From a virus, in the IMG/VR virus record IMGVR_UViG_3300023112_000106, positions 1 through 21,803 of that record: a stretch of 21,803 nucleotides of DNA; one strand, written 5' to 3'. Made by a program: the position numbers and the translations under genes. The notes beneath the pieces were generated by a model. That model was not told the DNA's origin, did not search any database, and saw only the letters and a list, made by a program, of their open reading frames with translations. Each line of letters opens with the position of its first letter. The stretch's first letter is position 1. Positions 3,036-19,413 of the stretch are shown one piece after another.

Positions 3036-3063
3036 TTGACACGCACCGATAAACGTGTATTTT
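3036..3063 (+). promoter_or_regulatory. Sigma70-like promoter for the terminase block, with internal dyad
   Basis: TTGACA (3036-3041) is a perfect consensus -35 box. It is followed after 16 bases by TATTTT (3058-3063), and the ATG of terS is at 3089. The spacer carries an inverted repeat, ACACG (3039-3043) with CGTGT (3054-3058), placed where a repressor could bind between the two boxes. The element lies in a non-coding gap of about 100 bases, which supports it. Confidence 0.6.
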
Positions 3064-3088
3064 ATACGGGAATTTAAAGGGAGTGATT

Positions 3089-3457
3089 ATGGCGAGGCCG
3101 ACGAAGTACGAAGAGAAGTTTTGCGGGCAGGTTGAAGACCTTTGCTTGCTTGGTGCTACCGATGAGGAGGTGGCGCATTTCTTCAATATCTCGACCTCGA
3201 CTTTTTACAACTGGAAGAAAGAATACCCTGAGTTTTTGGAGGCCATAAAGGACGGGAAGGAGAATGCAGACGCAAAAGTTGCGAAAAGCCTATACCAAAC
3301 CGCGCTTTCTGGAAATACGACCGCTCAAATCTTCTGGCTTAAAAACAGACGGACGCGTGATTGGAGAGATAAGCAGGACATCGACGTGAAATCAGACGGC
3401 GACAAGATAACCGGCCTCTCGATCAACTTTGTCGATCCGAAGAAAGGGAGCGAATGA
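3089..3457 (+). CDS. terS: Terminase small subunit
   Basis: The 122-residue product begins MARPTKYEEKFCGQV and carries a helix-turn-helix at about residues 22-46 (GATDEEVAHFF then STSTFYNWKKEYPEF). This is the common N-terminal DNA-binding pattern of phage small terminases. Such proteins form rings that recognise the packaging site and stimulate the large subunit. The second part (AKVAKSLYQTALSG to KNRRTRDWRDKQ) also fits the family: a helical stretch before the RTRDWRDK segment that is frequent in these proteins. The start is the ATG at 3089 with AAAGGGAG ahead of it, rather than the GTG two codons upstream. It is the first gene after the promoter at 3036. The large subunit is unusually far away, nine genes downstream. 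Confidence 0.87.
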   Translation: MARPTKYEEKFCGQVEDLCLLGATDEEVAHFFNISTSTFYNWKKEYPEFLEAIKDGKENADAKVAKSLYQTALSGNTTAQIFWLKNRRTRDWRDKQDIDVKSDGDKITGLSINFVDPKKGSE

Positions 3458-3768
3458 CCCTCGGACGCAGACCAACCGGCATCGTCATTGGAACGCGCAA
3501 GGTTTCGGACTGGAAAGACAAAGAGATCGTTGCGTACATCTCTGCACGTGGGTTTGTTGAATATGACAACATCGAGAAGCAGATTCTCAATGATCCGTGG
3601 GTTGATGGCTGGGAAACGCGCGAAAAAGGCGGGACATTAATGGACTTGCCTTTAGACTCACAGTTTTCTAGGGTTGCAGACAGAAGCGAACGTTATGCCC
3701 TGAAGGTGAAGGGTTGGGGCGATTGCGAAAAATGGCTGAAGAAACAAGAACGAAAGGAAAAGGTATGA
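3454..3768 (+). CDS. Unknown protein, coupled to terS
   Basis: The start codon overlaps the terS stop (ATGA at 3454-3457), so the 104-residue product is probably made by coupled translation. It has a basic N terminus, a central aromatic-acidic region (DPWVDGWETREKGG) and a highly charged lysine-rich C-terminal helix (EKWLKKQERKEKV). No family is recognised. The first half (RKVSDWKDKEIVAYISARGF) could hold a small helical domain. Its place between terS and the phosphoesterase suggests an accessory in packaging or nucleic-acid metabolism, but this is inference from position. Confidence 0.6.
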   Translation: MTLGRRPTGIVIGTRKVSDWKDKEIVAYISARGFVEYDNIEKQILNDPWVDGWETREKGGTLMDLPLDSQFSRVADRSERYALKVKGWGDCEKWLKKQERKEKV

Positions 3769-4547
3769 AAAGAGGCGTAATACTATCAGACCTGCATTGT
3801 GGGCATTTGGCTGGCTTAACACCTCCCGAATGGCAAGTAAACGGCGATGGATGGCGAGAGAAGATCCGCGAGACACAACGGCAAGCATGGAGCTGGTTTG
3901 ATGACACGATGAACGCTTTACCTGCTTTAGACTTCATGTTCTGCAATGGTGATGCGGTAGACGGAACCGGTCATCGCTCAGGTGGTAGCGAGCAAATCAC
4001 AACCGACATGAACATCCAATCAGAGATGGCTTCGTATATCCTTTCGCGGTACTCAAACCGAGACACGAAAATATACATGACCTACGGAACGCCGTATCAC
4101 ACAGGAATCGTCTCAGATGCCGAATATAACATCGCCAAAGACGTAAACGCTGAAGAGATCGGCGGGCAGGTGTTTGTTGACGTAGATGGCGTTGTGTTTG
4201 ATCTGAAACATAAGGTTGGCTCGTCAGGCATCCCACACGGACGCGCAACGGCTTTAAAGAAGGCTCAATTATGGAATAAGATATGGGCAGAAGCAGACGA
4301 GCAACCGCAGGCCGATGTTCTTATCCGCTCGCATGTTCACTATCATTCGGCCTGTTACGATCCAGATTTTGGCTGGACGATGACGACTCCTGCGCTCCAG
4401 GCGTTCGGGTCAAAGTACGGATCGCGTCAGTGTGAAGGGCGCGTCCATTTCGGGTTGATTTATGTAGAAATAGATAAGGGAGAACTATCATGGAAACCGG
4501 TATGTGCAAAACTAGAAGCTCACAAAAGCAAAGTATCAAAGGTGTAG
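3765..4547 (+). CDS. Calcineurin-like metallophosphoesterase
   Basis: The 260-residue product shows the metal-binding motifs of the calcineurin-like superfamily in order. SDLHCGH (residues 8-14) supplies the DxH pair, NGDAVDG (about 61-67) is the GD motif, YGTPYH (about 107-112) takes the place of GNHE/D, and RSHVHYH (about 188-194) is the GHxH-type motif. Enzymes of this superfamily hydrolyse phosphomono- or phosphodiesters with two bound metal ions; substrates range from nucleic acids to cyclic nucleotides and proteins. The start is the ATG at 3765, overlapping the previous stop (ATGA) and preceded by GAAAGGAAAAGG; a longer TTG-started frame has no support. The missing Asn in the third motif is unusual. 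Its location inside the terminase block suggests a DNA or RNA role, not proven. Confidence 0.83.
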   Translation: MKRGVILSDLHCGHLAGLTPPEWQVNGDGWREKIRETQRQAWSWFDDTMNALPALDFMFCNGDAVDGTGHRSGGSEQITTDMNIQSEMASYILSRYSNRDTKIYMTYGTPYHTGIVSDAEYNIAKDVNAEEIGGQVFVDVDGVVFDLKHKVGSSGIPHGRATALKKAQLWNKIWAEADEQPQADVLIRSHVHYHSACYDPDFGWTMTTPALQAFGSKYGSRQCEGRVHFGLIYVEIDKGELSWKPVCAKLEAHKSKVSKV

Positions 4548-5032
4548 TGATAAACCATGTTGAGGTATCAATCCAAGATGAGACTCCGATTGAAAAGGCA
4601 ATGGCGAATATATTGTCAGCTGTTAGTGAAAACGGAGGTTTTATAACATTAAGGGATCTGGAACGAAGAAACGGTATTGATAAAGCAACAGCACTAGAAG
4701 TCGCGCGAAGAAGTAACGGCGAGATAGTTATAGAAAAAATAAAAACAAAAAAAGCTGGAAGGCCGTCAGTTATTATAAGTAGTTGTATGAAAAAAGAGGC
4801 AATACAAATGGTTGACTGGGGTCTTGTAGACCAATTCACTGAACCAGTCGCGCCAACAATCCCAGAGAACGCAATCACGCGCCAGAAGATTGAGGAGCGA
4901 TACGGCATCAAACAGTGTCAAGCTGGCCGGAAGATGCGAATCCTGCGCGATAGTGGAAAGTTTGACGTGTTCCGATATCAGCCGAGCGGTTTGGGTGGCG
5001 TGAGTTACTATCTGGTTCCAAAGGAGGCTTGA
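4490..5032 (+). CDS. Putative DNA-binding protein with two winged-helix-like regions
   Basis: The 180-residue product starts at an ATG inside the end of the phosphoesterase gene, a 58-base overlap. I keep this start because AAGGGAGA stands at proper spacing. Residues about 37-95 look like a winged helix: helices around EKAMANILSAVSENGG, then a recognition-helix pattern (ITLRDLERRNGIDKATALEVARR), a basic strand and the turn KKAGRPSVI. A second similar unit lies at about 125-180 (ITRQKIEERYGIKQCQAGRKM, then the wing GVSYYLV). The basic GRP turn is common in DNA-contacting wings. It may be a regulator of the packaging block or a DNA-packaging accessory. No named family is assigned. Confidence 0.65.
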   Translation: METGMCKTRSSQKQSIKGVVINHVEVSIQDETPIEKAMANILSAVSENGGFITLRDLERRNGIDKATALEVARRSNGEIVIEKIKTKKAGRPSVIISSCMKKEAIQMVDWGLVDQFTEPVAPTIPENAITRQKIEERYGIKQCQAGRKMRILRDSGKFDVFRYQPSGLGGVSYYLVPKEA

Positions 5033-5611: not shown

Positions 5612-5759
5612 CGGTGATGAGGTGGACGCTGTATGGGCGCGAAAGCTCTTGTGCGTGTTTCAGAGGGCGCGTGTTGCGTCAAAGACAAAGAGACGCATCA
5701 GGAAGCGCAGACGGCGCGGAGACAAACTAATGATTCAACTGGAGGCTGGGAATGACTAG
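5592..5759 (+). CDS. Small arginine-rich basic protein
   Basis: A 55-residue frame is preceded by GGGAGGGG at five-base spacing, a very strong ribosome-binding site. The centre, from about residue 25 to 43, is extremely basic (SKTKRRIRKRRRRGDK), flanked by an amphipathic N-terminal helix. A cluster this dense suggests contact with DNA or RNA. It resembles arginine-rich RNA-binding peptides such as N-type antiterminators in composition only. It overlaps the genes on both sides by 20 and 8 bases. The function is not known. Confidence 0.6.
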   Translation: MREKLINGDEVDAVWARKLLCVFQRARVASKTKRRIRKRRRRGDKLMIQLEAGND

Positions 5760-5940
5760 TAACCGATTCAGGATAAACGGCCTGTCTCCAGAATGCGTTG
5801 ACCATGAGTGGACGGGTTGCGGTTGGGGCGATAAGGGCAAAGGCAAGACGTATTCAGACGTTGACTCGTTTCTGCTTGAAAGGCGCATGAATCGCGCGGG
5901 GAATATGATGGATTGGGTAGCTTGGAGGGTTGAGGTATGA
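5752..5940 (+). CDS. Small unknown protein
   Basis: The 62-residue product begins at ATG 5752 with GGAGG at 5741-5745, and overlaps the preceding stop by 8 bases. It is rich in tryptophan, glycine and charged residues (DHEWTGCGWGDKGKGK, then MDWVAWRVEV) with two cysteines. No family is recognised. It ends in an ATGA overlap with the next gene, so the two are probably coupled. Confidence 0.55.
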   Translation: MTSNRFRINGLSPECVDHEWTGCGWGDKGKGKTYSDVDSFLLERRMNRAGNMMDWVAWRVEV

Positions 5941-7503: not shown

Positions 7504-7531
7504 TTGACAACCCAGCCGAATCTGCCACAAT
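7504..7531 (+). promoter_or_regulatory. Extended -10 promoter for the gene at 7559
   Basis: TTGACA (7504-7509) begins directly after the terL stop. After 16 bases comes CACAAT (7526-7531), preceded by TGC, the TGn of an extended -10. The ATG of the next gene is 27 bases downstream, with AGAAAGGA between. A perfect -35 in a 55-base non-coding gap is good evidence that this gene can be transcribed on its own. Confidence 0.55.
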
Positions 7532-8128: not shown

Positions 8129-8139
8129 TGATTGGTTTG

Positions 8140-8165
8140 GCCTCGCAGAAATGCGGGGCTTTTTT
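8140..8165 (+). terminator. Rho-independent terminator
   Basis: GCCTCGCA (8140-8147) pairs with TGCGGGGC (8152-8159), 8 bp with one G-U pair. The stem is closed by the stable GAAA tetraloop and followed at once by six T's (8160-8165). This is a textbook intrinsic terminator. It separates the terminase side from the structural operon, which restarts at the promoter 24 bases downstream. Confidence 0.88.
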
Positions 8166-8188: not shown

Positions 8189-8224
8189 AGCTCCCTAGAC
8201 AGAATCCACGCTATGTAGTATTTT
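8189..8224 (+). promoter_or_regulatory. Repeated late-promoter element, copy 1 (before portal)
   Basis: AGCTCCCTAGAC (8189-8200) is identical in three places in the window. Reading TAGACA (8196-8201) as the -35 box, a 17-base spacer leads to TATTTT (8219-8224). It starts 24 bases after a strong terminator and 36 bases before the portal ATG, the expected place for the first structural promoter. Confidence 0.72.
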
Positions 8225-8259
8225 CTCTGCCGATTTAAATCAGTAGGGAAATTTCTATT

Positions 8260-9795
8260 ATGGCAGACTACACCGGAACCGGTTCGGAAGGCGTATTTGG
8301 CAAGGTTGTGAACCGCGCAAAATCATTCTTCGCAACCTCGGAGCAGGATAATCAACCGATCGAGATGACTAGACAGCATCCCGACTATGAAATCCGCGCC
8401 GAGCAAATGACCATCAACATCATGTCGCTTCGTGGCGGGCGCAATTACGTCGAGAAGCGATTGAGCCGGTTTGCTGGCGAATCCCGCATTGACTGGGACG
8501 GTGGCGAGCGGGCTGACGGCTCAAAGGCAACCGGACGCAAGGAGCAATCCCACGTTTTCCCATATCCGCGCCGAATCGCTGACAAGCTCAACCAGTACGT
8601 TTTCCAGACCGCGCCAACCCGTGAAGGAATCAATGAGGAGTTTGAACTCGATGCGTCTGCCGACGGGCGATCTTTAAATGACCTGATGATTGAGGCAAAC
8701 GACTACATCACCGCCGCTGGTTGGTGCTGGATTGGTGCTGATATGCCCAAGCAAGAGGGGCAAATCTCAGTAGCCGACGCCCAACGCATGAAGATCCGGC
8801 CTTACATTTGCGTTTATTCGCCGGTTTCAGTTGTTGACTGGAAGTTTAACAGCATCGGCGAGCTTGAGTGGCTTATCACTGAAGGCATGGATTATCAGAC
8901 ATCTACTCCGAACGAGTATCCCGTTCTCGTAAAGGTTCGGCGCATTTGGGTTCCTGGTGAAGTCCGCGTAATAGAATCGCAGACAGACGATCAGGGCAAG
9001 TGGGTGGTTGTATCAGATGAGACTATGCCGAGCGGATATGCTGGCGTTCCGTTCATTCTGGTCGGCAAAACATTTGCTCACGGTTACAGCTTCGATGATA
9101 TTGAGTCAATCAATCGCTCAATCATGGACATCGAGAGCGTGAACCGCGCGAACTTTTTTAAAGCAAGCTATCCCCAGCCGGTTTTGCCTGCTTCTGTGCT
9201 TCAAAATTGCGCGGATGCGTATCAGGTTGACGATGCCGGTGCCGCTGATCTTCTGTTTGGCATGAATTATCCAATCCTTATTTCAGAGGGTGACGCCAAC
9301 CCGTTCTACCTAATGCCGGACTCAAGCGCGTTAAAAGCACCGCGAGAGGAGCTTGAATATCTAAAGCGCAATATGTTCGATGCAGTCGGGTTGATGCTTC
9401 AGAACGAGTCAAAGCAGGTTGCAAGCGCAGAATCTAAAGCGTGGGACTTCTTAGACGTTGCTCAGGTGATGAAGGCGAGAGCGCAGGTTTTGGAAGATGC
9501 AGAGACTCGCCTCGCTGAAGTAGTCAACGGCTTCGACTCAAATATGCCTTTGTGGACTCCTGTTTATAACCGCGACTTCGACATCGGCGACTTCAATCAG
9601 GAAATCCAAGCTCTTATAATGACGCTTAACGCACCGATGCCGGTTGAAATGACGCGCATCGCACAGGAAAAACTACTTGACCGCATGGATCGTATCGGAG
9701 CTGGCATCACCACAGAACAGCGAGAAACCGCGCTTAAAGCGATTAAGGAGTATGACCCGACCGTTCATACGTTTGGCGAACTAGAAACACTTTAA
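8260..9795 (+). CDS. Portal protein
   Basis: The 511-residue product is called portal from size, fold-like composition and position: it follows the terminase block and precedes scaffold and capsid. Portals form the 12-fold ring through which DNA enters and leaves the head. The N-terminal part has an HPDYEIRAEQMTINIMSLRGG segment and a basic-aromatic region (HVFPYPRRIADKLNQYVFQ) like SPP1-type or DUF4055-type portals. The central region (IYVYSP-like VCVYSPVSVVDW, then VPFILVGK) is followed by a long helical stem region (REELEYLKRNMFDAVGLML) where a portal's crown-stem helices lie. The start ATG 8260 has only AGGGA upstream, but it follows the promoter at 8189 directly. Confidence 0.85.
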   Translation: MADYTGTGSEGVFGKVVNRAKSFFATSEQDNQPIEMTRQHPDYEIRAEQMTINIMSLRGGRNYVEKRLSRFAGESRIDWDGGERADGSKATGRKEQSHVFPYPRRIADKLNQYVFQTAPTREGINEEFELDASADGRSLNDLMIEANDYITAAGWCWIGADMPKQEGQISVADAQRMKIRPYICVYSPVSVVDWKFNSIGELEWLITEGMDYQTSTPNEYPVLVKVRRIWVPGEVRVIESQTDDQGKWVVVSDETMPSGYAGVPFILVGKTFAHGYSFDDIESINRSIMDIESVNRANFFKASYPQPVLPASVLQNCADAYQVDDAGAADLLFGMNYPILISEGDANPFYLMPDSSALKAPREELEYLKRNMFDAVGLMLQNESKQVASAESKAWDFLDVAQVMKARAQVLEDAETRLAEVVNGFDSNMPLWTPVYNRDFDIGDFNQEIQALIMTLNAPMPVEMTRIAQEKLLDRMDRIGAGITTEQRETALKAIKEYDPTVHTFGELETL

Positions 9796-9803
9796 CGGCA
9801 TCA

Positions 9804-9827
9804 CCCGCGCCGTAAAGCGGGCGTTTT
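9804..9827 (+). terminator. Terminator-like hairpin after portal
   Basis: CCCGC (9804-9808) pairs with GCGGG (9817-9821), followed by CGTTTT. It stands 9 bases after the portal stop. The T-run is only four long, so it may be a partial terminator or attenuator. A second inverted repeat follows it, AACACA (9832-9837) with TGTGTT (9848-9853), and the gap to the scaffold gene is otherwise empty. Confidence 0.5.
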
Positions 9828-9899
9828 GGCGAACACAGGCCATTGATTGTGTTATTGGTTAGCGCGTAGACCATGACAACGCGAGAAACAGGAAGAATG

Positions 9900-10523
9900 A
9901 TGGCAGATAAAGACGACAACAATACAGACGCAAGGAAAGCACTCGAAGAGAAAATGTCAGCGATGCAGGCAACTATGCAGGCAAAGATCGACGCTCTTGA
10001 GGGCAAATCTGCGGGTATATTGAGCGACAAAAAGAAGGAGCAGACTGCAAAGGATGCGCTACAGGCCGAACTTGATGAGCTGAAATCGAAAGATCTTGGC
10101 GAGGTTGAGAAGCTGAAACTTGAAAATGAACGGATGCAATCGCGTGTAGACGCTGCGGAACTGAAGGCGCAAGAAGCCTCGGAAACGTTGTCAAGCACAC
10201 AGCGCAAAAATGCGCTTAATGACATCTCTAAAAAGTTCAAGTGGATGGATAGCGTACCGGAAAACCTGCGATCACTTACGTTGCAGAACGAGTTCGACGG
10301 CATTGATCTTGGAAACGAGGTTCTTGTTGCGGATAAGGTCAAAACCATCACGGAATCCTACGCTGGATTGCTGGCTTCAGATGTGCCGAGTGGCACAGGC
10401 TCGCATCCTGGCAACCCGTCAGCCCCACAGCAAAAGGCAACGGCTGAACAGATCGCGAATCCAGACTTGAGCAAGGTGGCAAGTGACCCCTTGGCGTATG
10501 TTCTGGCTTCGACAGAAGCGTAA
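9900..10523 (+). CDS. Scaffolding protein
   Basis: The 207-residue product is mostly a long charged coiled coil (residues about 10-110, rich in Lys, Glu, Ala and Leu, such as LQAELDELKSKDLGEVEKL). A short alpha-beta region and a flexible Gly-Ser-Pro stretch (SGTGSHPGNPSAPQ) follow before the C terminus. This fits phage scaffolds of the gp20/DUF4355 kind, which direct capsid assembly and then leave. Its place between portal and major capsid supports the call. I choose ATG 9900 because AGGAAG (9890-9895) is spaced for it; ATG 9873 and 9897 are alternatives. Confidence 0.82.
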   Translation: MADKDDNNTDARKALEEKMSAMQATMQAKIDALEGKSAGILSDKKKEQTAKDALQAELDELKSKDLGEVEKLKLENERMQSRVDAAELKAQEASETLSSTQRKNALNDISKKFKWMDSVPENLRSLTLQNEFDGIDLGNEVLVADKVKTITESYAGLLASDVPSGTGSHPGNPSAPQQKATAEQIANPDLSKVASDPLAYVLASTEA

Positions 10524-10545
10524 CCAGTAATAAAAGGAATATATC

Positions 10546-11424
10546 ATGGCTATTAGCACAAAAACTCTCGGCGACATCACTCCTGAAGTGTGGCGCAACG
10601 TTGTATTATCCGGTCTTCGTAAAGACTTGGTTGGTGAACTCGTATGTAACAAGAACTTCAAACAAGAGTTCTGGGGCAAGGGTGACACTCTGAACATCAG
10701 CTCAATGGGAACGTTGACAGATGCTCAGTACACCGACGCAAACATCACTTATGAGGCTCTGACTGACTCCAAAGTTCAGCTCGTAATTGATCAGGAACAG
10801 TACGTTGCATTCAAAGACGAAGACGCAGAACGTAACAACATCTCCGTAAATTACATGACTGAGGTTATGACGGACATGGGTTATCAGCTCGGCGACTTCT
10901 GGGACAACAAAATCATGGCAGAATTTGCGAATGCCGGTTTGGATTCTTATGCGACCGGAACTACATCATGGCAGATCACCGCCACGACCGCCGCGAACCT
11001 GCCCGCAATGATGGGCGCACTGAAGCGTCAGTTGAAGGTTGCAAGCGCACCTGCTGGTTCTGTTTACTTCATCGCACCGCCGGAAATCGAAGAAGCAATT
11101 ACGCTTTACTTCGGAAGCAAAGGTCCGGCATCTCAGTATAGCGATGACTATGCAAAGAACGCTAAATATGCCGGTCGTTTCTTCGGCGTTGAAACATTCA
11201 TCAGCAACAACTGCTCAGACGATGACACTACAGTTCACGGTCTGGCTGGTGTTGTTGGCACTTCTATCGCGTTGGCGAATGATGTGATCACCGACGAAGC
11301 TCTGCGTCTTGAAGGACGTATTGCTAACGGTTATCGCGCGTTGTCCATCGGTGGAGTTAAAACTTATCGTCCTGCCATCAGCATCGACGTTAATATCAAC
11401 TCAACCGTAATCGCAACCTCGTAA
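10546..11424 (+). CDS. Major capsid protein
   Basis: The 292-residue product has the size and composition of an HK97-fold major capsid protein. It begins with an N-terminal arm (MAISTKTLGDITPEVWRNVV). A beta-rich stretch (KGDTLNISSMGTLTDAQYTD, then VQLVIDQEQYVAFKDED) and a helical region (MTEVMTDMGYQLGDFWDNKIM) follow. A later segment with VYFIAPPEIEEAITLYF and IALANDVITDEALRL fits the A domain of such proteins. AAAGGAA gives the ribosome-binding site. Codon use is very even, as expected for a gene translated at high level. It follows the scaffold, and a terminator-like hairpin stands directly after it. No prohead protease is seen, so maturation cleavage is probably not used. Confidence 0.88.
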   Translation: MAISTKTLGDITPEVWRNVVLSGLRKDLVGELVCNKNFKQEFWGKGDTLNISSMGTLTDAQYTDANITYEALTDSKVQLVIDQEQYVAFKDEDAERNNISVNYMTEVMTDMGYQLGDFWDNKIMAEFANAGLDSYATGTTSWQITATTAANLPAMMGALKRQLKVASAPAGSVYFIAPPEIEEAITLYFGSKGPASQYSDDYAKNAKYAGRFFGVETFISNNCSDDDTTVHGLAGVVGTSIALANDVITDEALRLEGRIANGYRALSIGGVKTYRPAISIDVNINSTVIATS

Positions 11425-11431
11425 ATGAATC

Positions 11432-11458
11432 GGGCGGGACGACCACCGCCCACTTTTT
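11432..11458 (+). terminator. Intrinsic terminator or attenuator after the major capsid gene
   Basis: GGGCGG (11432-11437) pairs with CCGCCC (11446-11451) around an 8-base loop, followed two bases on by five T's (11454-11458). The next gene's ribosome-binding site begins at once after the T-run. The genes beyond have no repeated promoter of their own before 14801, so the element probably reduces transcription and does not stop it fully. Confidence 0.68.
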
Positions 11459-11470
11459 AAAGGAATTACT

Positions 11471-11716
11471 ATGAAAAAATTATTCGTTTTTCTCGTATCA
11501 TTGTCAGTCGGCCTCGCTGTTTTGAGCGTGGACTATACGCCGGTCACATCTGAAAAGGGCGCACAAGCAGTCCAGATTACCACGACCACTAACGCTGTTG
11601 ACGCTACCGAGTTCACTCCGGTATTTGTCGGCCAGATGTTGATCGGTTCTGTAAGCAATGACGTTTATGTTGCTGAAGACCTGACCACAAACGGTTGGAT
11701 TCAGTTATCTAACTAA
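11471..11716 (+). CDS. Small protein with signal peptide, after the capsid gene
   Basis: The 81-residue product starts MKKLFVFLVSLSVGLAVLSV: two lysines, then about 16 hydrophobic residues. This is a good Sec signal peptide or membrane anchor, with possible cleavage before DYTPVTSEKG. The rest is Thr- and Val-rich, beta-like and lacks cysteines; its tail (DVYVAEDLTTNGWIQLSN) looks like a small sandwich. In other phages this position often holds a capsid decoration protein, but an export signal on a virion protein is unexpected. AAAGGA precedes the ATG. It is enclosed by two similar GC-rich hairpins. No family is recognised. Confidence 0.65.
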   Translation: MKKLFVFLVSLSVGLAVLSVDYTPVTSEKGAQAVQITTTTNAVDATEFTPVFVGQMLIGSVSNDVYVAEDLTTNGWIQLSN

Positions 11717-11725
11717 TCAGCACCG

Positions 11726-11759
11726 GGGCGGGAATCCAAACCGCCCACCACCTCTTTTT
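11726..11759 (+). terminator. Second GC-rich attenuator-like hairpin
   Basis: GGGCGG (11726-11731) pairs with CCGCCC (11741-11746) around a 9-base loop; five T's are at 11755-11759. The stem is identical to the hairpin at 11432. The T-run is 8 bases from the stem, so this copy is likely weaker as a terminator. It too lies just ahead of a ribosome-binding site. Confidence 0.5.
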
Positions 11760-11772
11760 GAAAGGATAAATC

Positions 11773-11919
11773 ATGGGCGACTATACACCGACGACCAAGT
11801 ACAAGCACGAAGCACCGAAAGCGGAAACACCCGTTGCAGAAAAGCCAAAGGTGGCGAAGAAAGCCACAGCTAAAAAACCAGTTGCGAAGAAAAAGGCTCC
11901 TATCAAAAAGGATGACTGA
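11773..11919 (+). CDS. Histone H1-like Lys/Ala/Pro-rich peptide
   Basis: A 48-residue frame starts at ATG 11773 with AAAGGA ahead. After a short polar beginning (MGDYTPTTKYKHEAPK), residues about 20-46 are almost only Lys, Ala, Pro and Val (VAKKATAKKPVAKKKAPIKK), the composition of a histone H1 C-terminal tail. Such tails are unstructured and bind DNA through charge. Here the peptide sits among head genes and its stop overlaps the connector start (TGATG). It might coat packaged DNA, neutralise charge in the head or act at the portal. It is a low-complexity sequence, so homology cannot be inferred from composition alone. Confidence 0.65.
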   Translation: MGDYTPTTKYKHEAPKAETPVAEKPKVAKKATAKKPVAKKKAPIKKDD

Positions 11920-12296
11920 TGGCGTACACAAAAGACATAGACGACGCAAACACTTATTTCGGAGTAGGTAATCATGTCAAAACCTATGACTGGACAAGCT
12001 ATGAGACCGCCGAGAGAACCGCCAGCCTCGCACAAGCACAGCGAGAGCTTGAAGTATTTCTTAATCGGGATCTCAGCGATCCGGCAGACTCTGACAGATA
12101 CCGCGACGACTACGCATGTTTTGAGCAGGCTCTTTTCATCTTGGAAGAGACTATTCGACAACGCGAAAGCGAAACGGGAGCGCAGTTGATTGAAACCGTG
12201 GACAGCGAAAACCGCGATAAATATTACGGCGTGACGATAAGTCCGATGGCTCAGAGATACCTTGCCAAGCGTCGAGTGAAGTTTGTGCGGGGTTAG
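11919..12296 (+). CDS. Head-tail connector (gp6-like adaptor)
   Basis: The 125-residue product is mainly helical with a compact charged beginning (YTKDIDDANTYFG) and a run of helices (AERTASLAQAQRELEVFLNRD, ACFEQALFILEETIRQ). It is followed by a beta hairpin and the basic end LAKRRVKFVRG. This fits adaptors of the HK97 gp6/SPP1 gp15 type, which form the ring below the portal. The segment YYGVTISPMAQRYLAKRR is typical, as many of these proteins end with a statement that the C-terminal strand sits against the portal. The start overlaps the previous stop. Confidence 0.72.
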   Translation: MAYTKDIDDANTYFGVGNHVKTYDWTSYETAERTASLAQAQRELEVFLNRDLSDPADSDRYRDDYACFEQALFILEETIRQRESETGAQLIETVDSENRDKYYGVTISPMAQRYLAKRRVKFVRG

Positions 12297-12299
12297 GTA

Positions 12300-13259
12300 A
12301 TGGCTGAAAAGGGTTCAAAGAAACTCCGCAGGCAGATCAAGGATGGCGAAAAAGAACTCGCTAAAATCCTGAAAGACGCCAAGGCAGAGGTCGAGCGGAA
12401 GATTCAGAAGGCCGTCAGTAAGGGAAACTTTGCGACGGCTGCTTCTGTTCGTTCTGGTCTGTATCGCGGAATTGTTTCGGAATACGTCAAGCTAAACCGC
12501 AAGTTTGATGTATATGTGAACGAGCAGGGAAAGCGTGTTGCTAAGGAATGGGGCAAAGAGCTTGCTGACGACCTGCCAAAAGGCGCGAAACTTATCTCTT
12601 TCGGCACGTTCTCAAAGAAGTATCTTGACGATATCATCGAAAAGGTAAGCCCGTCCACGTCTGACAAGCGCGTTCTTCTAAACGCCCGCTTTGGTTCGAT
12701 GGCTAAGGGTGACGTTGACGAGATCCGCGGGATTGTTGTTGATACGCTTCGGGCTGGTGCTGCGTCCGGCATGACAACGCCAGAGATGGCGAACGAAATG
12801 AATCGCAGAGTCAGCGCGTATAAGCCCGGACTCGTTCTCCGCGATAAGAACGGGCGCAGAATGGCGGTCGATTCATACTTCGCAATGATCAACAGAACCG
12901 TTTCCGCAAACGTAGCGCGGGAAACTTACACAACCATGAGCGCAGAGGCGGGTTATGATTTACAGCAAGTTGAAGGCGGTATTACAGCAGGTAGCTTGCA
13001 ACCGGGCGATCCGTGTTCGAGATGGGCGGGGAAGATTCTTTCGATGTCTGGCAACAACCCGAAGTATCCAAGTTACGCCGATGCAGTCGCGGACGGGCTA
13101 TTCCACCCGAACTGCGTCCACACGCTCTCAGTCGTCACGCCGTCGGGATTACCTGAAGCTAAAAAGGAACGAGCGGAGACAGGTAAAGAGGGCGCAGAGG
13201 GACGCGCTGAGGTTCAGAAGGAACGCAAAGAGGACGGTTTGAAACCGGCGAAGTTCTAA
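12300..13259 (+). CDS. Minor capsid protein (SPP1 gp7/Mu F-like)
   Basis: The 319-residue product starts with a charged helical region (KKLRRQIKDGEKELAKILKDA). The most telling part is the later half: NRTVSANVARETYTTM, then GDPCSRWAGKILSMSG (residues about 236-251) and HPNCVHTL (269-276). These correspond to the DxxCxxxxGK and HPNCRH motifs of minor head proteins of the Phage_min_cap2 and Mu gpF group. These proteins bind the portal inside the procapsid, and some are ejected with the DNA. The C-terminal tail is highly charged (KKERAETGKEGAEGRAEVQKER). The gene begins three bases after the connector stop and overlaps the next start (TAATG). Confidence 0.85.
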   Translation: MAEKGSKKLRRQIKDGEKELAKILKDAKAEVERKIQKAVSKGNFATAASVRSGLYRGIVSEYVKLNRKFDVYVNEQGKRVAKEWGKELADDLPKGAKLISFGTFSKKYLDDIIEKVSPSTSDKRVLLNARFGSMAKGDVDEIRGIVVDTLRAGAASGMTTPEMANEMNRRVSAYKPGLVLRDKNGRRMAVDSYFAMINRTVSANVARETYTTMSAEAGYDLQQVEGGITAGSLQPGDPCSRWAGKILSMSGNNPKYPSYADAVADGLFHPNCVHTLSVVTPSGLPEAKKERAETGKEGAEGRAEVQKERKEDGLKPAKF

Positions 13260-13744
13260 TGGCTGGCGATGTAACCATAGACGACCGCGAACTTGTGCGC
13301 CTGATGAAGAAGCTCCGGAAGGCCAGCAAAGGCAATCAAAAGATCATCAATAAGATGTTTAAAAAGATTGGGGCGATTATTTTGGGCGTATCGAGAGCCT
13401 ATGCACCGCGCTCAATGACAAAGGGCGAATACCTGTCAACGCTCAAAGGCGGTGTTACAAAGCGCAACACTTCGTCTTTCACAACCGGCAATCTAAAGAA
13501 ATCCATCACGGTCGAGGTAAAAAGCGACCGCGTGGAAATCGGAGTGCCGTCAAACTCTCCAGCCGGTAAATATGCAGAGAAAATGCACGACGAAAAGGGC
13601 AGATCATGGAGGCGCTTAGGCTGGCAGAACGACCAAAAAGCAACAGATAAATTCATTTTCAAGGCGTTCGCGGATAAGCGGAGAGAGATAAACAAAGAGG
13701 TCGAGACCATGCTCGACGACGTAATTAAGGGGATCATACAATGA
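13259..13744 (+). CDS. HK97 gp10-like neck/tail-completion protein
   Basis: The 161-residue product begins with DVTIDDRELVRLMKKLRK and then has a long helix ending AIILGVSRAYAPRS. The pattern is followed by TTGNLKKSITVEV and YAEKMHDEKG. This series (a helix with AxxxAP, then TGxLxxSI, then YAxxxH) is the signature of HK97 gp10-like proteins, which act in head completion or tail joining. Strands with VEIGVPSNSPAGKYAE fit the fold. A C-terminal helix (FADKRREINKEVETMLDDVI) closes it. The ATG overlaps the minor capsid stop, and the end is coupled to the next start by ATGA. Confidence 0.82.
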   Translation: MAGDVTIDDRELVRLMKKLRKASKGNQKIINKMFKKIGAIILGVSRAYAPRSMTKGEYLSTLKGGVTKRNTSSFTTGNLKKSITVEVKSDRVEIGVPSNSPAGKYAEKMHDEKGRSWRRLGWQNDQKATDKFIFKAFADKRREINKEVETMLDDVIKGIIQ

Positions 13745-14802
13745 GCGCAAAACCGATCTATGAATTTGACAAACGAACAAGCTCAACGGATGCGGTTCCT
13801 TCCGCGCTTCAGGGTTCCGTTTATTGGTACGACACCGGCACAACCTTGAACGGCGAGTCTGTCTATTATGAATCAACCGACACTTACGCGCTATGGTACA
13901 ACGGCACAAATAGAGTCATTTCAGCCATTGCAGATGTTGATGGAAGCCCGACTGATTACTTTTACGAGTACTCAGACACAACCCAGATCGAAGGGCGTAC
14001 TGTTACGGATAACGTGGAGGTCGTCGGGTTTGATTATGACACCGGCACTCTTGATGCGGTTTATGACCGATCTGGGATGTATAACGACCGACCGCAATGG
14101 TATGCAGAAATAAACTATCTCGGATCGCTTCAGGATTTCTATGTTAGGTATGATTCTGCGACAAATAAATGGCTTATTTACTGGGACGACCTTTCAACGG
14201 TCGCAGCGCAGGTCGAGTCAACAGCATTCACTCCACCAAAAGACGGGTGGGAGGCGCAGATTGTTGGCCTTGATGATCCGTCGGTTCTTGTTGGCTTTAT
14301 TCCACAGGGCGCATGGTCTGGTGATGTTGTAATTAACGAGAACACAATCGCCGAATCATGGAACAAGGCCGAGCGCAACGTGTTTGAGTCGCTAATTGAC
14401 TTTCTAGGATGCACCGAGAATTCAAACGCATTCCGTGGCAGATACCCGACGAACGAGGACGGGAACCCGAAGTGGCGCAACGTGTGGATGATCAACTCAG
14501 GCGGATCTGCGGGCGCGTATGACACCGAGCGCACATACGGACTTGATGGAAACTGGTGCAACGCGATGATTAACTGCGAGGTGCGCGGATTGTTCAGGAC
14601 GCGCGTTTTGGCAATGAACTTTGCCTCCTCTGTTCTGGCATGGCTCAAGCATACTAACAACATGAACGAAACCGGAAACGTCGGCTGGTGTATGCTAACC
14701 GACCTACCGAGCGCACCGGAGCCGATTGTTATTGAGAACGACCTGCAATGGGAAGTAATCATACCGCTTCAAATTCTATACTTGACAGAGGGCGAATACT
14801 AG
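13741..14802 (+). CDS. Tail terminator-like protein with N-terminal beta-module extension
   Basis: The gene lies between the gp10-like protein and the major tail protein, the position of the tail terminator that caps the tail tube. The C-terminal half (from about residue 200: helix WNKAERNVFESLIDFL, then NVWMINSGG, strands, and a final QWEVIIPLQILYLTEGEY) fits tail terminators in length and its closing strand. The product is 353 residues, about twice the usual size. The first 200 residues hold two related beta units of about 60 residues: one around SVYWYDTGTTLNGESVYYES and YALWYNGTNRVI, the other around GMYNDRPQWYAE and FYVRYDSATNKWLIYWDD. Such Tyr/Trp-Gly modules are known from tail-fibre proteins. 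The start overlaps the previous stop (ATGA), and the TAG stop lies in the repeated promoter copy 2. Confidence 0.7.
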   Translation: MSAKPIYEFDKRTSSTDAVPSALQGSVYWYDTGTTLNGESVYYESTDTYALWYNGTNRVISAIADVDGSPTDYFYEYSDTTQIEGRTVTDNVEVVGFDYDTGTLDAVYDRSGMYNDRPQWYAEINYLGSLQDFYVRYDSATNKWLIYWDDLSTVAAQVESTAFTPPKDGWEAQIVGLDDPSVLVGFIPQGAWSGDVVINENTIAESWNKAERNVFESLIDFLGCTENSNAFRGRYPTNEDGNPKWRNVWMINSGGSAGAYDTERTYGLDGNWCNAMINCEVRGLFRTRVLAMNFASSVLAWLKHTNNMNETGNVGWCMLTDLPSAPEPIVIENDLQWEVIIPLQILYLTEGEY

Positions 14803-14836
14803 CTCCCTAGACGAAACCCGCAACCGGATTTATATT
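14801..14836 (+). promoter_or_regulatory. Repeated late-promoter element, copy 2 (before major tail protein)
   Basis: AGCTCCCTAGAC (14801-14812) is the same 12-mer as at 8189 and 19062. TAGACG as -35 (14808-14813), a 17-base spacer and TATATT (14831-14836) repeat the same geometry. The element overlaps the stop of the previous gene. The leader ends with GGAGGAAGAATC before the ATG, identical to that of copy 3. Confidence 0.72.
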
Positions 14837-14862
14837 ATTAAGCAATCAACGGAGGAAGAATC

Positions 14863-15618
14863 ATGGCAGACGCATCAGTAGCATTAGAAGCAAGCAATCT
14901 TTTCAGCTTGTCGGCAAATTTTAACACAACCGCATCGACTACATCCGAAGGCTCAACGGCAGTCAACGTGATGGATGAGGTCGGCAATGTAGCCTGTGAA
15001 ACAATCATCACAGATATTACAAACTACACCCAGAGCGCGTCATATTGCGGATCTGATTTCATGACCGATATCGGAACCTTCCTGACCGAGTTTGGAAACG
15101 CGCAGAACTCCAAAGTTGTGACAGGTTTATCGATCAACATGACCGCAGGTGGATACGTCACGACTGACATCACCGGCCATAATCATGCCGAGAACGCTCA
15201 CGTAGCCGGTCTGACTCTTGGTTACGCCGACGTTTCAGACTTCCTTCCGCACGAAGTCGGTGAAGCGTTCGCATCTTGGGACGGGTTCGGAATCCCTGCC
15301 GATTACGACATCACAACCGGCACAGATTCTTCGGCATCAAGCGCGTCAGTTACATTTGCAATGAATCACGTTGACCAGATCGACGAAACCGGCGATCACC
15401 TTGTCGGAAAGAACATCACTCCGCGCTGTGAACTCAGCATGGACTTTGTTGGAATCCCGACGAGCAATACGCAGGCTCTTTTGAACGCCGACTTTGCAGC
15501 GGCGACGAACGATATGCTCGGATGCGTTTGGGACTCTGACGATTCAAACGACTCAAACAGCGACTTCGATACGTTTGCCTTAACCGGACACGCCCACACT
15601 GATCTTGCAACTGCATAA
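14863..15618 (+). CDS. Major tail protein (tail tube)
   Basis: The 251-residue product is beta-rich and acidic, with high Ser, Thr, Ala and Asp, as for siphovirus tube proteins. It lies between the tail terminator-like gene and the tail chaperone and tape measure, the conserved position. Strands such as VVTGLSINMTAGGYVTTDITG and ITPRCELSMDFVG alternate with flexible loops. The ending (DSDDSNDSNSDFDTFALTGH) is a striking Asp/Ser/Asn-rich acidic loop that could bind calcium or stay exposed. It has its own promoter and a perfect GGAGG ribosome-binding site, fitting high expression. The assignment rests mainly on order and size. Confidence 0.78.
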   Translation: MADASVALEASNLFSLSANFNTTASTTSEGSTAVNVMDEVGNVACETIITDITNYTQSASYCGSDFMTDIGTFLTEFGNAQNSKVVTGLSINMTAGGYVTTDITGHNHAENAHVAGLTLGYADVSDFLPHEVGEAFASWDGFGIPADYDITTGTDSSASSASVTFAMNHVDQIDETGDHLVGKNITPRCELSMDFVGIPTSNTQALLNADFAAATNDMLGCVWDSDDSNDSNSDFDTFALTGHAHTDLATA

Positions 15619-15629
15619 AGGGGCTGATT

Positions 15630-15776
15630 ATGGGTAAACATGGACTAGCAAGTTGCGAAAAAGGGCGCGTGAAAAGCCCAGAAAAAGAGGTTGACGATGC
15701 AGGAACTGACGAAGAATGCGATATCGAATCTGCAACGCACAACCGGACATGTTCTGACTGTCGCGGATTGGGATGA
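15630..15776 (+). CDS. Small Cys-containing frame overlapping the tail chaperone gene
   Basis: A 48-codon frame starts with ATG at 15630, six bases after AAGGGG. It runs 80 bases into the next gene in another frame. The product (start MGKHGLASCEKGRVK) is hydrophilic and ends CSDCRGLG, a single copy of the CxxCxGxG repeat of DnaJ zinc fingers. One copy alone cannot form the four-Cys DnaJ site unless the other two cysteines help. The ribosome-binding site is better than that of the following gene, so it may really be translated and couple expression of the chaperone. It could also be a chance frame. Confidence 0.42.
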   Translation: MGKHGLASCEKGRVKSPEKEVDDAGTDEECDIESATHNRTCSDCRGLG

Positions 15777-16413
15777 TCTCGAAGCCCTTGACTCGTTAGC
15801 CGAAAAGGTCGCCGGTGTTTCTACAATAGAGCGCCGGCTACTTAATTCTCCGTTTGAGCTGTGCGGTATTAAATTTTACCCGCTGACGGTTGCGAAATCC
15901 CTATGGTTCTCTGAAAAGTGCAATGATTGGGAGATTGCATCCGAGCATCAAGACGCATTTATGTTTTGGGTTTTGACTTTTCCGTTAACTGAAGCTCCGT
16001 TTGATGAATACTCAACCAAGCGTAAAGCTGACCGCGCGATGACAAAGTTCGCGCGAAAACTTCACATGACTCACTGCGAAATAAACCAAGTTTGCAACAA
16101 GTGCCTCGGATTGATTGATTCAGGCGACGGTGATGGGTCAAAATCAAGCGCAACGGGCTTCGGCGGGATGGTTGCGTGTCTCATCCGAGAGTACGGTCAA
16201 AGCCCCGATTACTGGCTAAACGAAGCGCCGATTGAAAAGGTCACAGAGATGTACGACCAGATTGTTTTGCGCGTGGTTGCGGAAGAGGACGCTGGGCGGA
16301 GCGCATCAGCAAGCAACGGACAAGCAAAAGCACCAAGCGCATCGCCAAAGTTACTAGCGTTTAAAGCATTTCGTGATAAGGCGCAGGAATTAAGCGAAAA
16401 ATGGAGCGCATAG
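15697..16413 (+). CDS. Tail assembly chaperone
   Basis: The 238-residue product lies between major tail protein and tape measure, the place of the chaperones that bind the tape-measure protein during tube assembly. It has a hydrophilic start, a mixed region with LLNSPFELCGIKFYPLTVAKSLWF, a helical domain (YSTKRKADRAMTKFARKLHM) and a flexible Ser/Ala/Lys-rich C-terminal region (ASASNGQAKAPSASPK). The start is ATG 15697 with AAGAGG at proper spacing. The second chaperone frame that is usually reached by a slip near the end (the G/GT arrangement) is not visible, because the tape-measure ATG follows the stop by one base. Confidence 0.66.
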   Translation: MQELTKNAISNLQRTTGHVLTVADWDDLEALDSLAEKVAGVSTIERRLLNSPFELCGIKFYPLTVAKSLWFSEKCNDWEIASEHQDAFMFWVLTFPLTEAPFDEYSTKRKADRAMTKFARKLHMTHCEINQVCNKCLGLIDSGDGDGSKSSATGFGGMVACLIREYGQSPDYWLNEAPIEKVTEMYDQIVLRVVAEEDAGRSASASNGQAKAPSASPKLLAFKAFRDKAQELSEKWSA

Positions 16414-16414
16414 A

Positions 16415-17893
16415 ATGACAACAAAGAAAGTAAATCTTGTAATCAGCCTGAAAGATGGCGTTTCTGCCGGTCTTCAGAAGATCGGGAAAGGCGTCAAGAC
16501 GCTTGGTGGCTCGTTCAAGCTAATGGCGAAGGTGGGCGCTACGGCATTCGCTGCGGTCGGGGCTGCTGCGTTCGCTGTAAGCAAGACGATTAAGAGGTCG
16601 TTTGAGTTTGAGACGGCAAAGGTTCAGTTGAAAAGCCTTCTCGGATCAACAGATGCAGCGACAAAACGGTTTAATGAGCTTAGAGATTTCGCAGCGTCAA
16701 CACCATTTCAACTTCCAGAGCTTCTTGATGCGTCAAAAAAGCTTACTGTTTTCACAGAGGGCGTTCTTGGTGGCGCGAAATCATTAAAGATTATCGGCGA
16801 CGCTGCTGCTGCGGTCGGAACACCAATCGAAGAGGTTTCATTCTGGATTGGTCGCGCTTATTCAATGCTAAAAGGTGGCAAGCCGTTTGGTGAAGCTGCG
16901 ATGCGGTTGCAGGAAATGGGAATCCTAACGCCGAAAGTACGCGACGAAATGGAGAAGATGCAGGAATCTGGCGCGTCGTTTGAGGATGTCTGGAAGAAGA
17001 TGAATGGCGAGATGGGTAGATTCAGTGGCTCAATGGAGGAGCTTTCCCAAACCGGCGCTGGCAAATGGTCAACGCTAATGGACAATATGGGAATCGCAAT
17101 GGCTGAGTTCGGAAACGAACTGCTTGAGGTTTCAAAAGACGGCATTGACGGGCTTACTGAATCGATTAAGACGCTCGTTGCTGACGGAACGCTGGAGCGA
17201 TGGGCGAGGAACGTAGCTGATGCAATCGCCAGCATTGTCGCCCAGATGCGAGCAGCAATGGACACATTTGACAACATGAGGAAGTCGCGCAATGCTTATG
17301 ACAAGGCCACAAAGGATATTATGGGGGCGGACGGCGGAACCAAAATTGGGCGGGCAAAGAATGCGGATTTGATTCGTGCGCGAGCTGAACAAATAATCGC
17401 CGAAGACAAAGCAGTCGAACAGCTAAAAAAGCGCATGGCATTAGAAGAGAAAATGCTTGCAAGGAAAGCCGAGGCTGACGCGAAGCGCAAAAAAGCCGAT
17501 GACGAGCACTGGGATAAGCTTCTTTCCGAGACGCGCAAGGCAGATATTGCGGCGGGCCTGACCCCTGGCCCGCAAAACGACAAAGATGGCGCAGAGAAAG
17601 AAGGCGTTGCGCAGCTTGCCGAAAAAGTCGCAAAATCAGTTCAGCCCAAAAGGAAAGAAGAAGAGGAAACAAATGCCTCCAGGGACGCAGAGGTTGAGAA
17701 AAAACCAACGGTTTCACCATCGACGCTTGAACTGTTCAAAGACCTAAGCAAGGGCAGATCATTCGAAGGCGCAACATCTGCGCTTAGTCAAGTGACAACG
17801 GCGATGGAGGGCGAGTCCATTAAAAAGGTCGCGGTGCTTCTCGAAGACCAAAACAAGATTTTAACTGAACGGCTCGGTGGCGTCAGTTCATAA
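16415..17893 (+). CDS. Tape-measure protein
   Basis: The 492-residue product begins with a short beta segment (KKVNLVISLKDGVSAGLQK), then a hydrophobic stretch at about residues 36-56 (LMAKVGATAFAAVGAAAFAV). The region SFEFETAKVQLKSLLGSTDAA and STPFQLPELLDASKKLTVF is typical of the conserved N-terminal part of tape-measure proteins. A Gly-rich loop with KGGKPFGEAAMRLQEMG follows. The C-terminal third is highly charged coiled coil (from about 320: EQLKKRMALEEKMLARKAEADAKRKK). The tape length sets tail length. At the commonly seen ratio of about 0.15 nm per residue, 492 residues suggest a tail near 75 nm, short for a siphovirus. The gene starts one base after the chaperone stop. Confidence 0.88.
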   Translation: MTTKKVNLVISLKDGVSAGLQKIGKGVKTLGGSFKLMAKVGATAFAAVGAAAFAVSKTIKRSFEFETAKVQLKSLLGSTDAATKRFNELRDFAASTPFQLPELLDASKKLTVFTEGVLGGAKSLKIIGDAAAAVGTPIEEVSFWIGRAYSMLKGGKPFGEAAMRLQEMGILTPKVRDEMEKMQESGASFEDVWKKMNGEMGRFSGSMEELSQTGAGKWSTLMDNMGIAMAEFGNELLEVSKDGIDGLTESIKTLVADGTLERWARNVADAIASIVAQMRAAMDTFDNMRKSRNAYDKATKDIMGADGGTKIGRAKNADLIRARAEQIIAEDKAVEQLKKRMALEEKMLARKAEADAKRKKADDEHWDKLLSETRKADIAAGLTPGPQNDKDGAEKEGVAQLAEKVAKSVQPKRKEEEETNASRDAEVEKKPTVSPSTLELFKDLSKGRSFEGATSALSQVTTAMEGESIKKVAVLLEDQNKILTERLGGVSS

Positions 17894-17905
17894 CAGGGGA
17901 CAATC

Positions 17906-17983
17906 ATGGCAGAAACTTCAGGCTGGATGTGGGAATCAATCAACCGAAAAGAGACTCGTCTTATCAGGGCGCAACCTTGTTGA
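17906..17983 (+). pseudogene. Well-initiated 25-codon frame, apparent N terminus of the next gene
   Basis: ATG 17906 follows AGGGGA at ideal spacing and reads MAETSGWMWES before stopping at TGA 17981-17983. The gene proper continues in the neighbouring frame from the same stretch, whose only start is a GTG at 17929 with a poor ribosome-binding site. A -1 shift at the AAAA run (17947-17950) would join the two frames into one protein of about 223 residues. It may be a programmed slip, a one-base assembly error or a real mutation. Confidence 0.5.
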
Positions 17984-18579
17984 CCAGAAACAATTGGGTA
18001 ATCATAAGAAAGCGCATCAGTGACGACGATTATGACTCGGAACTCGGGGAGGAGGAAAGCTCCCTCAGCGCATATAATGGAGGCGTTACGGAAACGATTG
18101 CAGGCCCAGTGATCTCAGGCTACACAATCGGGCCAACCGTCAGAAACTACACAAACACAACCGATGTCTGTATTCCAACTGGTCAAATCCAGAACGGATC
18201 GGCTGTTTATGCGACCCCATCAACCATAACAAACATCCCAGACAGCGAAAAACGCAACGTGTTGCATCTTGTAGCAGTTGGCAGCGAGCTTAACTGGTCT
18301 TATGGCGAATTCACGCAGGCGGAGGTTGATACTCTGACGGTTCCTGACTCGCGTGGCACAAGCTATGTTTACGACGACAGCAACAAACCGGCTGGATCTT
18401 TGCCGGTTTCGCTAAACATGAACCTATATGGCGGAACATTTGTCGGAAGCAACGGCGCGATTGCATCGACTTACGCTTACCCGTTCACATGCACAGGCGA
18501 CAATCAAGTTTATGAGCAACAGAGTGTTGATTGGTATACACAAAGACAAACATGGGTGTTTAAAGATGGGTGGCAGTAA
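17929..18579 (+). CDS. Tail protein downstream of tape measure (distal-tail candidate)
   Basis: From the GTG at 17929 the product is 216 residues, or about 223 if joined to the well-initiated frame at 17906. It is rich in Ser, Thr, Asn and Tyr, with many predicted beta strands: NNWVIIRKRISDDDYDSE near the start, VLHLVAVGSELNWSYGEFT in the middle and YTQRQTWVFKDGW at the end. No cysteine pair or enzyme motif is seen apart from single Cys residues. Proteins right after the tape measure in siphoviruses are usually distal tail or tip components, so this one may be part of the tail tip. No family is recognised. The stop overlaps the next ATG (TAATG). Confidence 0.6.
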   Translation: MGINQPKRDSSYQGATLLTRNNWVIIRKRISDDDYDSELGEEESSLSAYNGGVTETIAGPVISGYTIGPTVRNYTNTTDVCIPTGQIQNGSAVYATPSTITNIPDSEKRNVLHLVAVGSELNWSYGEFTQAEVDTLTVPDSRGTSYVYDDSNKPAGSLPVSLNMNLYGGTFVGSNGAIASTYAYPFTCTGDNQVYEQQSVDWYTQRQTWVFKDGWQ

Positions 18580-18887
18580 TGGCATCTAAATTCAAGCACG
18601 ACTTTGAAGGCACGGGCACTTTTGTGGAGTTTGTCTCTGCTTGCAACAGGTTATTCGAGGCGATGAGCAACATAACAGTTGTCATGCCGGTTGATTATAG
18701 GGGAACAGAGCCGACTCTTGTCGCATCAACAGACGGCACAATCACATTCGACATGGGTGACGCTTTAATATTTACAACAAACAATATTGATTGGGAACTG
18801 TCAGGAGATGCGACGTTTGAAAGTTACAGCGCGGAAGTTGTTAACGGCAAGCTAGTCATCAGCGTTGAGGCGAACAACACACCATAG
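18579..18887 (+). CDS. Small tail protein, paralog A
   Basis: The 102-residue product (MASKFKHDFEGTG...) starts in a TAATG overlap. Residues about 9-35 (FEGTGTFVEFVSACNRLFEA) match the start of the next gene (FEGSGCMIELVDEWNKLFEA), so the two are tandem paralogs. The C-terminal half is a beta-rich region that the next gene lacks (LIFTTNNIDWELSGD, then VNGKLVISVEAN). No named family is recognised. Position suggests a tail-tip or fibre-attached component. Confidence 0.6.
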   Translation: MASKFKHDFEGTGTFVEFVSACNRLFEAMSNITVVMPVDYRGTEPTLVASTDGTITFDMGDALIFTTNNIDWELSGDATFESYSAEVVNGKLVISVEANNTP

Positions 18888-18896
18888 GGAGGGGTT

Positions 18897-19058
18897 ATGG
18901 CTTTTGAGGGTTCAGGGTGCATGATCGAGCTTGTTGACGAATGGAACAAGCTGTTTGAAGCATCAGAAAACACGGTCGTAATTCAGCGACAGACAATTTC
19001 TGGAATCGCGTCAATGTCAATCGGTGGTGGGGAGTGGATAGTCACAATGGGCGAATAA
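18897..19058 (+). CDS. Small tail protein, paralog B (short)
   Basis: The 53-residue product starts at ATG 18897 with AGGGAGGGG just ahead, one of the best ribosome-binding sites in the window. Residues 3-22 (FEGSGCMIELVDEWNKLFEA) align to paralog A, and the product ends with MGE at the place where paralog A has MGDA and goes on. It may be a deletion derivative of a duplicated gene, or a real shorter partner. The four bases after the stop lead into promoter copy 3. Confidence 0.6.
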   Translation: MAFEGSGCMIELVDEWNKLFEASENTVVIQRQTISGIASMSIGGGEWIVTMGE

Positions 19059-19061
19059 ACT

Positions 19062-19097
19062 AGCTCCCTAGACGATCAAACAAGCATAGTTTAAATT
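19062..19097 (+). promoter_or_regulatory. Repeated late-promoter element, copy 3 (before small beta protein)
   Basis: AGCTCCCTAGAC (19062-19073) is the third copy. TAGACG (19069-19074) plus a 17-base spacer reaches TAAATT (19092-19097). The leader then gives GGAGGAAGAATC before ATG 19120. The sequence before this copy (GGGCGAATAA, then ACT) resembles that before copy 2, suggesting that the element spread as a larger block. Confidence 0.72.
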
Positions 19098-19119: not shown

Positions 19120-19413
19120 ATGTTATTGAATGGCGAAGGCAATCAGGCGACCGCAACAAGCTCATCGGCTCGTTGGGAAGTATCAAAATCTGGCGCAAAC
19201 TCTTTGGGCGTTGACGTAGAAGGCACAGCTTCTGTTTATGTCGCCGTTAACTGCACAACCGCAGAGTTCGATATTTTACATGCTGCGAATAAGACGATTA
19301 AAGTTCGTCAGAATATCCCGTTCAGTTACTACGGCGATCAGGTTGAAAACATAAAAAGCATTTGCTACCAGTCTGCCGGTGCCGATTCTGCTGTCAATTT
19401 CGCAGCATTTTAA
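19120..19413 (+). CDS. Small beta-rich tail protein
   Basis: The 97-residue product begins MLLNGEGNQATATSSSARW and continues with alternating hydrophobic residues (SVYVAVNCTTAEFDIL, then IPFSYYGDQVENIKSICYQS), as in a small beta sandwich. Two cysteines, in VNCTT and SICYQ, could pair. It has no signal peptide. It is the first gene of the third repeated-promoter block and has a perfect GGAGG, so strong expression is likely. The proteins after it are large and exported-looking, so this may be an adaptor or a small spike-like protein. No family is recognised. Confidence 0.6.
   Translation: MLLNGEGNQATATSSSARWEVSKSGANSLGVDVEGTASVYVAVNCTTAEFDILHAANKTIKVRQNIPFSYYGDQVENIKSICYQSAGADSAVNFAAF

Follow-up and report, generated by a model that had tools for sequence, protein, structure and literature searches.

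What reads a short box that recurs, letter for letter, ahead of three gene blocks of an uncultured tailed phage, and how much of that box belongs to an ordinary promoter? The question is raised by the window analysed here (the whole 21,803-bp viral fragment of one IMG/VR record, to which all box counts refer), where the 12-mer AGCTCCCTAGAC was initially annotated as part of a late-promoter family that a phage-coded activator or a special sigma factor may serve. The explanation favoured here, with a probability of about 0.75, is that the copies are late promoters for the housekeeping sigma factor that open virion operons, the AGC-N3 part of the box perhaps being bound by an additional protein. 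The sites are largely of the ordinary sigma70 kind, apart from the extra upstream part of the box. For an uncultured phage family without an isolate, this provides a concrete late regulon of three operons, each with predicted start sites. In addition, the occurrence of a weak -35 with an AGC box alongside a strong -35 amounts to a small natural experiment in late-promoter tuning by phages, and the orthologous set lets the search for the missing regulator be judged.

Gene context and relatives

The genes for a DnaB-like helicase, the small and large terminase subunits, portal, scaffold, major head protein, minor head protein, neck protein and tape measure (16415-17893) all lie on the + strand of the window, and intergenic gaps make up 7.9% of its length. 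Relatives were gathered from IMG/VR by protein-based scans, in which their head and tail proteins were ~50-85% identical to those of the window; they comprise L004 (record G001, 36 kb), L014, L015, L016, L017, L018, L020, L021, L023 and L024 (G012). No DNA match to the window was found among isolated phages, whose MCP and portal protein matches all fall below 60%, and two GTDB scans yielded no prophage relative. Two small proteins with no assigned function (window 3454-3768 and 5752-5940) are kept near terminase in much of the family; their genes precede the large terminase gene in the window and are located between large terminase and portal in several relatives.

Occurrence and geometry of the box

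Exact copies of the 12-mer occur on the + strand only, at 8189-8200, 14801-14812 and 19062-19073, each before a gene. After 18 intervening bases, the copies are followed by the -10-like boxes TATTTT (8219), TATATT (14831) and TAAATT (19092), respectively, and with TAGACR taken as -35 the spacer is 17 nt in all three. The arrangement first noted, namely three exact + strand copies before genes with TAWWTT at a fixed offset, is thus confirmed on the record, and no other copy, inside genes or elsewhere, exists at zero or one mismatch in the 21,803 bp. The accompanying statement that the copies always lie in a gap needs correcting for copy 2, which covers the last two bases of the TAG stop of the upstream gene (14800-14802).

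Only two 12-mers are present three times in the window, AGCTCCCTAGAC and the start-codon context AATCATGGCAGA; of 300 dinucleotide shuffles, 5 had some 12-mer in three copies. The + strand has 25 TAWWTT matches. The 17-nt spacers of the three sites are unrelated whereas the 12-mer is identical, and copies 2 and 3 have 17 nt in common (ACTAGCTCCCTAGACGA). Exact identity of the three copies might suggest recent duplication of a short mobile or recombination-prone sequence with no promoter role, but this is very improbable: just 12-17 nt are common, the spacers differ, and the age of the sites is shown by relatives with 50-85% protein identity, in which each position has a version of its own.

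In a sigma70-type promoter scan of the window, copies 1 and 2 scored 9 of 12 matches. By count the scan is at background (19 found versus 15.8 expected), and it is therefore position and conservation that carry the promoter case. The site search at one mismatch also gave background, with reversed-pattern controls scoring equally. The search for the exact 12-mer plus TAWWTT in relatives, suggested in the initial annotation, returned nothing from IMG/VR; within that collection, no phage but this one has the exact box. Rfam gave no match, and a literature search for CTAGAC promoters gave nothing.

The three predicted promoters and their genes

The elements and genes described in this section are all on the + strand. 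Immediately upstream of promoter 1, the preceding block closes with an intrinsic terminator (GGCCTCGCAGAAATGCGGGGCT-TTTTT, 8139-8165), and L016 has a similar hairpin at the same place (GCCTCGCTTAACGGCGGGGCTTTCTTG). Box copy 1 (8189-8200) is accompanied by the -35-like TAGACA (8196-8201) and the -10-like TATTTT (8219-8224), with a predicted start at ~8231. The gene that follows (8260-9795) opens the head block and is firmly assigned to the portal protein (phrog_145, E=1.4e-44), as had been claimed.

Box copy 2 (14801-14812) has its first two bases inside the stop of the 13741-14802 gene. Its -35-like TAGACG (14808-14813), recovered in the scan, and its -10-like TATATT (14831-14836, predicted start ~14843) are both covered by the footprint against L016. 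The downstream gene (14863-15618, 251 aa) opens the tail block and lies two genes upstream of the tape-measure gene; the claim that it encodes the major tail protein (MTP) is kept as putative, by synteny only. Its product is 62% identical to that of L004, 71% to those of L015/L016 and 67% to that of L024; it has no PHROG, Pfam or PDB match, and its fold model has a pLDDT of 32. The leader shared by copies 2 and 3, to which attention had been drawn, is present before this gene (GGAGGAAGAATC, 14851-14862) and before the 19120 gene, and it reads as a Shine-Dalgarno sequence; its GGAGG is kept in L015/L016 and L004, and it is an ordinary ribosome-binding site.

Box copy 3 (19062-19073) comes with the -35-like TAGACG (19069-19074), read from the sequence and replaced by TTTGACT at the orthologous site of G001, and with the -10-like TAAATT (19092-19097, predicted start ~19104). 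The 97-aa protein whose gene opens the third block (19120-19413) was put forward as a small tail protein and has no assignable function; an orthologue 47% identical in L004 (15220-15513) is also preceded by a promoter-like site.

Orthologous sites in relatives

In relatives, the portal gene and the predicted MTP gene are preceded by AGC-N3-CTAGAC and, 17-18 nt further on, by a TATA-like box. Before portal, where CTAGAC is found in L014/L016, L004, L018, L020, L021 and L023, the sites read AGCAAACTAGAC-17-TATAGA in L014/L016, AGCTAACTAGAC-18-TATAGG in L004/L018/L023 and AGCTGACTAGAC-18-TATAGC in L020/L021, compared with AGCTCCCTAGAC-18-TATTTT in the window. At the MTP position, the window has CTAGCTCCCTAGACGAAAC and L015/L016 have CTAGCAACCTAGACGAAAC, with TATATTA at equal distance after both; in an ungapped comparison of the window with L016, the box is conserved at 10 of 12 positions and the -10 and ribosome-binding site are kept, whereas the mid-spacer has diverged. 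The same pattern emerges from the seven distinct TAGAC sites, in which AGC and CTAGAC are invariant, N3 is variable, the mid-spacer is unconserved and a TA-rich -10 returns.

Canonical TTGAC takes the place of TAGAC in some relatives. It is found at the L017 portal (AATTTGACA), at the L024 portal (TAGCAAATTTGACA), which aligns with the TAGAC site of L014 (ATAGCAAACTAGACG), and before the MTP and 97-aa genes of G001 (CTAATTTGACTTT..TTTAAAT), a genome in which TAGAC and TTGAC types coexist.

As to frequency, the non-redundant set has 7 occurrences of AGC-N3-CTAGAC against a mean of 1.3 for permuted patterns, some of which are found as often as 8 times; the number in itself is thus unremarkable, and the argument rests on position. 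In the 13 records, AGCNNNCTAGAC is matched exactly 12 times, always on the coding strand and ahead of a portal, MTP or 97-aa gene; sites at one orthologous position share ancestry and are not independent, and independent sites are few. With this support from orthologous sites, the promoter reading stands well, and the three copies are very probably promoters.

Which sigma factor reads the sites

A spacer of 17 nt (16-18 nt being usual), a TATAAT-like -10 (TATTTT, TATATT and TAAATT match the consensus at only 4-5 of 6 positions) and a -35 near TTGACA are all found, as expected of sigma70-type promoters. The -35 itself, TAGACA or TAGACG, agrees with the sigma70 consensus at 4-5 of 6 positions. 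A housekeeping sigma factor is favoured because TAGAC and TTGAC exchange at one position, also within one genome.

Host RNA polymerase with this factor would thus read three late promoters (-35 TAGACR, one base off TTGACR; spacer 17 nt; -10 TAWWTT), each presumably starting a virion-gene operon: the head operon from portal, the tail operon from the putative MTP gene and a third from the 97-aa gene. The predicted leaders would be ~16-30 nt long, with the Shine-Dalgarno sequence at the end.

Use of AGC-N3-CTAGAC as the own element of a phage or alternative host sigma factor, or of a phage RNA polymerase, was considered because the conserved block exceeds a sigma70 -35 and the -35 is non-consensus. 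This is unlikely, and the special sigma factor of the initial annotation is disfavoured: orthologous sites can have canonical TTGAC instead of TAGAC, with both types present in G001; neither the ORFs and family searches of the window nor the translated ORFs of the 36-kb G001 and of G012, examined by eye, revealed a gene for a sigma factor or RNA polymerase; and consensus T7-type, T4-late and sigma54 motifs are absent.

The AGC-N3 extension and a possible regulator

Compared with the housekeeping consensus (TTGACA-17-TATAAT), the sites share the 17-nt spacing, an AT-rich -10, a -35 one or two bases off and, in relatives, TTGAC itself; they differ by a conserved AGC-N3 directly upstream of the -35 and by a -35 fixed as TAGAC. 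A sigma70 site does not require this upstream part. At the three window sites N3 is always TCC, and at the two L016 sites it is AAA or AAC; it changes from phage to phage but stays the same, or almost the same, within each, a pattern that would fit a class II-type activator or an operator protein. An extra DNA-binding protein may contact AGC-N3 just upstream of the -35, in the simplest form a phage activator that, class II-style, would make up for the weak -35; we put the existence of such a protein at about even odds. Contact of a class II-type activator with AGC and the -35 edge is the simplest account, with an operator or inheritance as alternatives. The suggestion of a phage-coded activator is compatible with the AGC, invariant at a fixed distance in 7 of 7 TAGAC sites, and with the phage-specific N3, but no activator was found. 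A fuller version, in which AGC-N3-CTAGAC would be the operator of a new phage late activator, set against a weakened -35 and co-evolving with its sites, with a partial switch to strong TTGAC sites in some relatives, is offered tentatively.

It is likewise conceivable, if doubtful, that the sites are sigma70 promoters pure and simple, in which the AGC-N3 is inherited or constrained for some other reason such as stop codons or DNA bendability. Left-edge bases are indeed set by overlapping stop codons in several copies (TAG or TAA, in copy 2 and G001), and sites at one locus have common ancestry; this account has more difficulty with a full 12-mer that is identical at three non-orthologous window sites with unrelated spacers, and with an AGC that never varies among the 7 distinct TAGAC sites. 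Phage-specific bases constant within a phage could also be accounted for by an operator overlapping the -35, at which a phage repressor would hold back the late genes until late infection or during lysogeny. It is improbable, as the box has no consistent inverted repeat across phages, no integrase or repressor was recognised in the window, and direct repression of several late operons is rarer than activation.

The search for the regulator gave one weak and speculative candidate, to be taken as a lead only: a 180-aa protein (4490-5032, + strand) with an N-terminal winged-helix-like domain. Residues 33-97 are modelled, with moderate confidence, as helix-helix-helix-strand-strand; the MarR_2 match (E=0.017) is below cut-off, no significant fold match was obtained, and G001 and G012 contain no convincing relative.

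Comparison with known promoter systems

Late promoters of Mu are activated by protein C, occur several per phage, and have a poor -35 with an activator site upstream of or overlapping it (PMC4461284). The sites described here are similar in being several late promoters with a non-consensus -35 and an element adjoining it. The inverted repeat bound by Mu C is TTAT-N6-ATAA near -35; it is absent at 7 of 7 sites here, and no Mor/C family activator gene was recognised in the window fragment. In T4 middle promoters, the MotA box, used with AsiA, has the sequence TGCTT and is centred at -30, with 12 bp between it and the -10 (PMC2988021). There, as here, a host -10 is combined with a phage element that adjoins the -35 or takes its place, but the present sites have a -35-like hexamer at 17 nt and no TGCTT. 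The P2 late promoters, dependent on Ogr, are comparable in that one box is common to several morphogenesis operons. Their motif is TGT-N12-ACA near -55, to which no consistent match was found upstream of the sites.

Altogether, motifs for Mu C, P2 Ogr, MotA, T4 late, sigma54, CII and T7 were negative or inconsistent at the sites. The sites are filed under none of these types and stand as a late promoter family of sigma70 type.

Other sites in the phage family

Further elements were seen in the window and its relatives. Canonical TTGACA promoter-like sites devoid of an AGC box lie at 3036-3065 (before the small terminase gene) and 7504-7531 (before the 7559 gene) in the window, which suggests two promoter classes in one phage. 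Inverted repeats of the TTTGACA..TGTCAAA type occur near the portal promoter in L024 (3017-3060) and upstream in L014. In L004 (1868-1896) and L020, the only sub-group concerned, the portal box is flanked by a GTCTA-N11-TAGAC inverted repeat and a direct repeat, TCTAAACAA.

In L023, a RusA-like gene is separated from the small terminase gene by a 570-nt non-coding gap (434-1004), with a AGCTAGGTAGAC-18-TATATT site at 541. Positions 586-1004 correspond to a strongly structured RNA (-127.5 kcal/mol, z -3.7) that includes a GAGGTTCGCCGGAAG/CTTCCGGCGAGCCTC hairpin and a T-run; Rfam gave no match to it, and neither the window nor the related records searched have it at full length. Finally, TCAAGACAATTC is kept upstream of the small terminase gene in L004/G001, L023 and L017; it may represent a further variant of the -35 (AAGACA) or a site connected with packaging.
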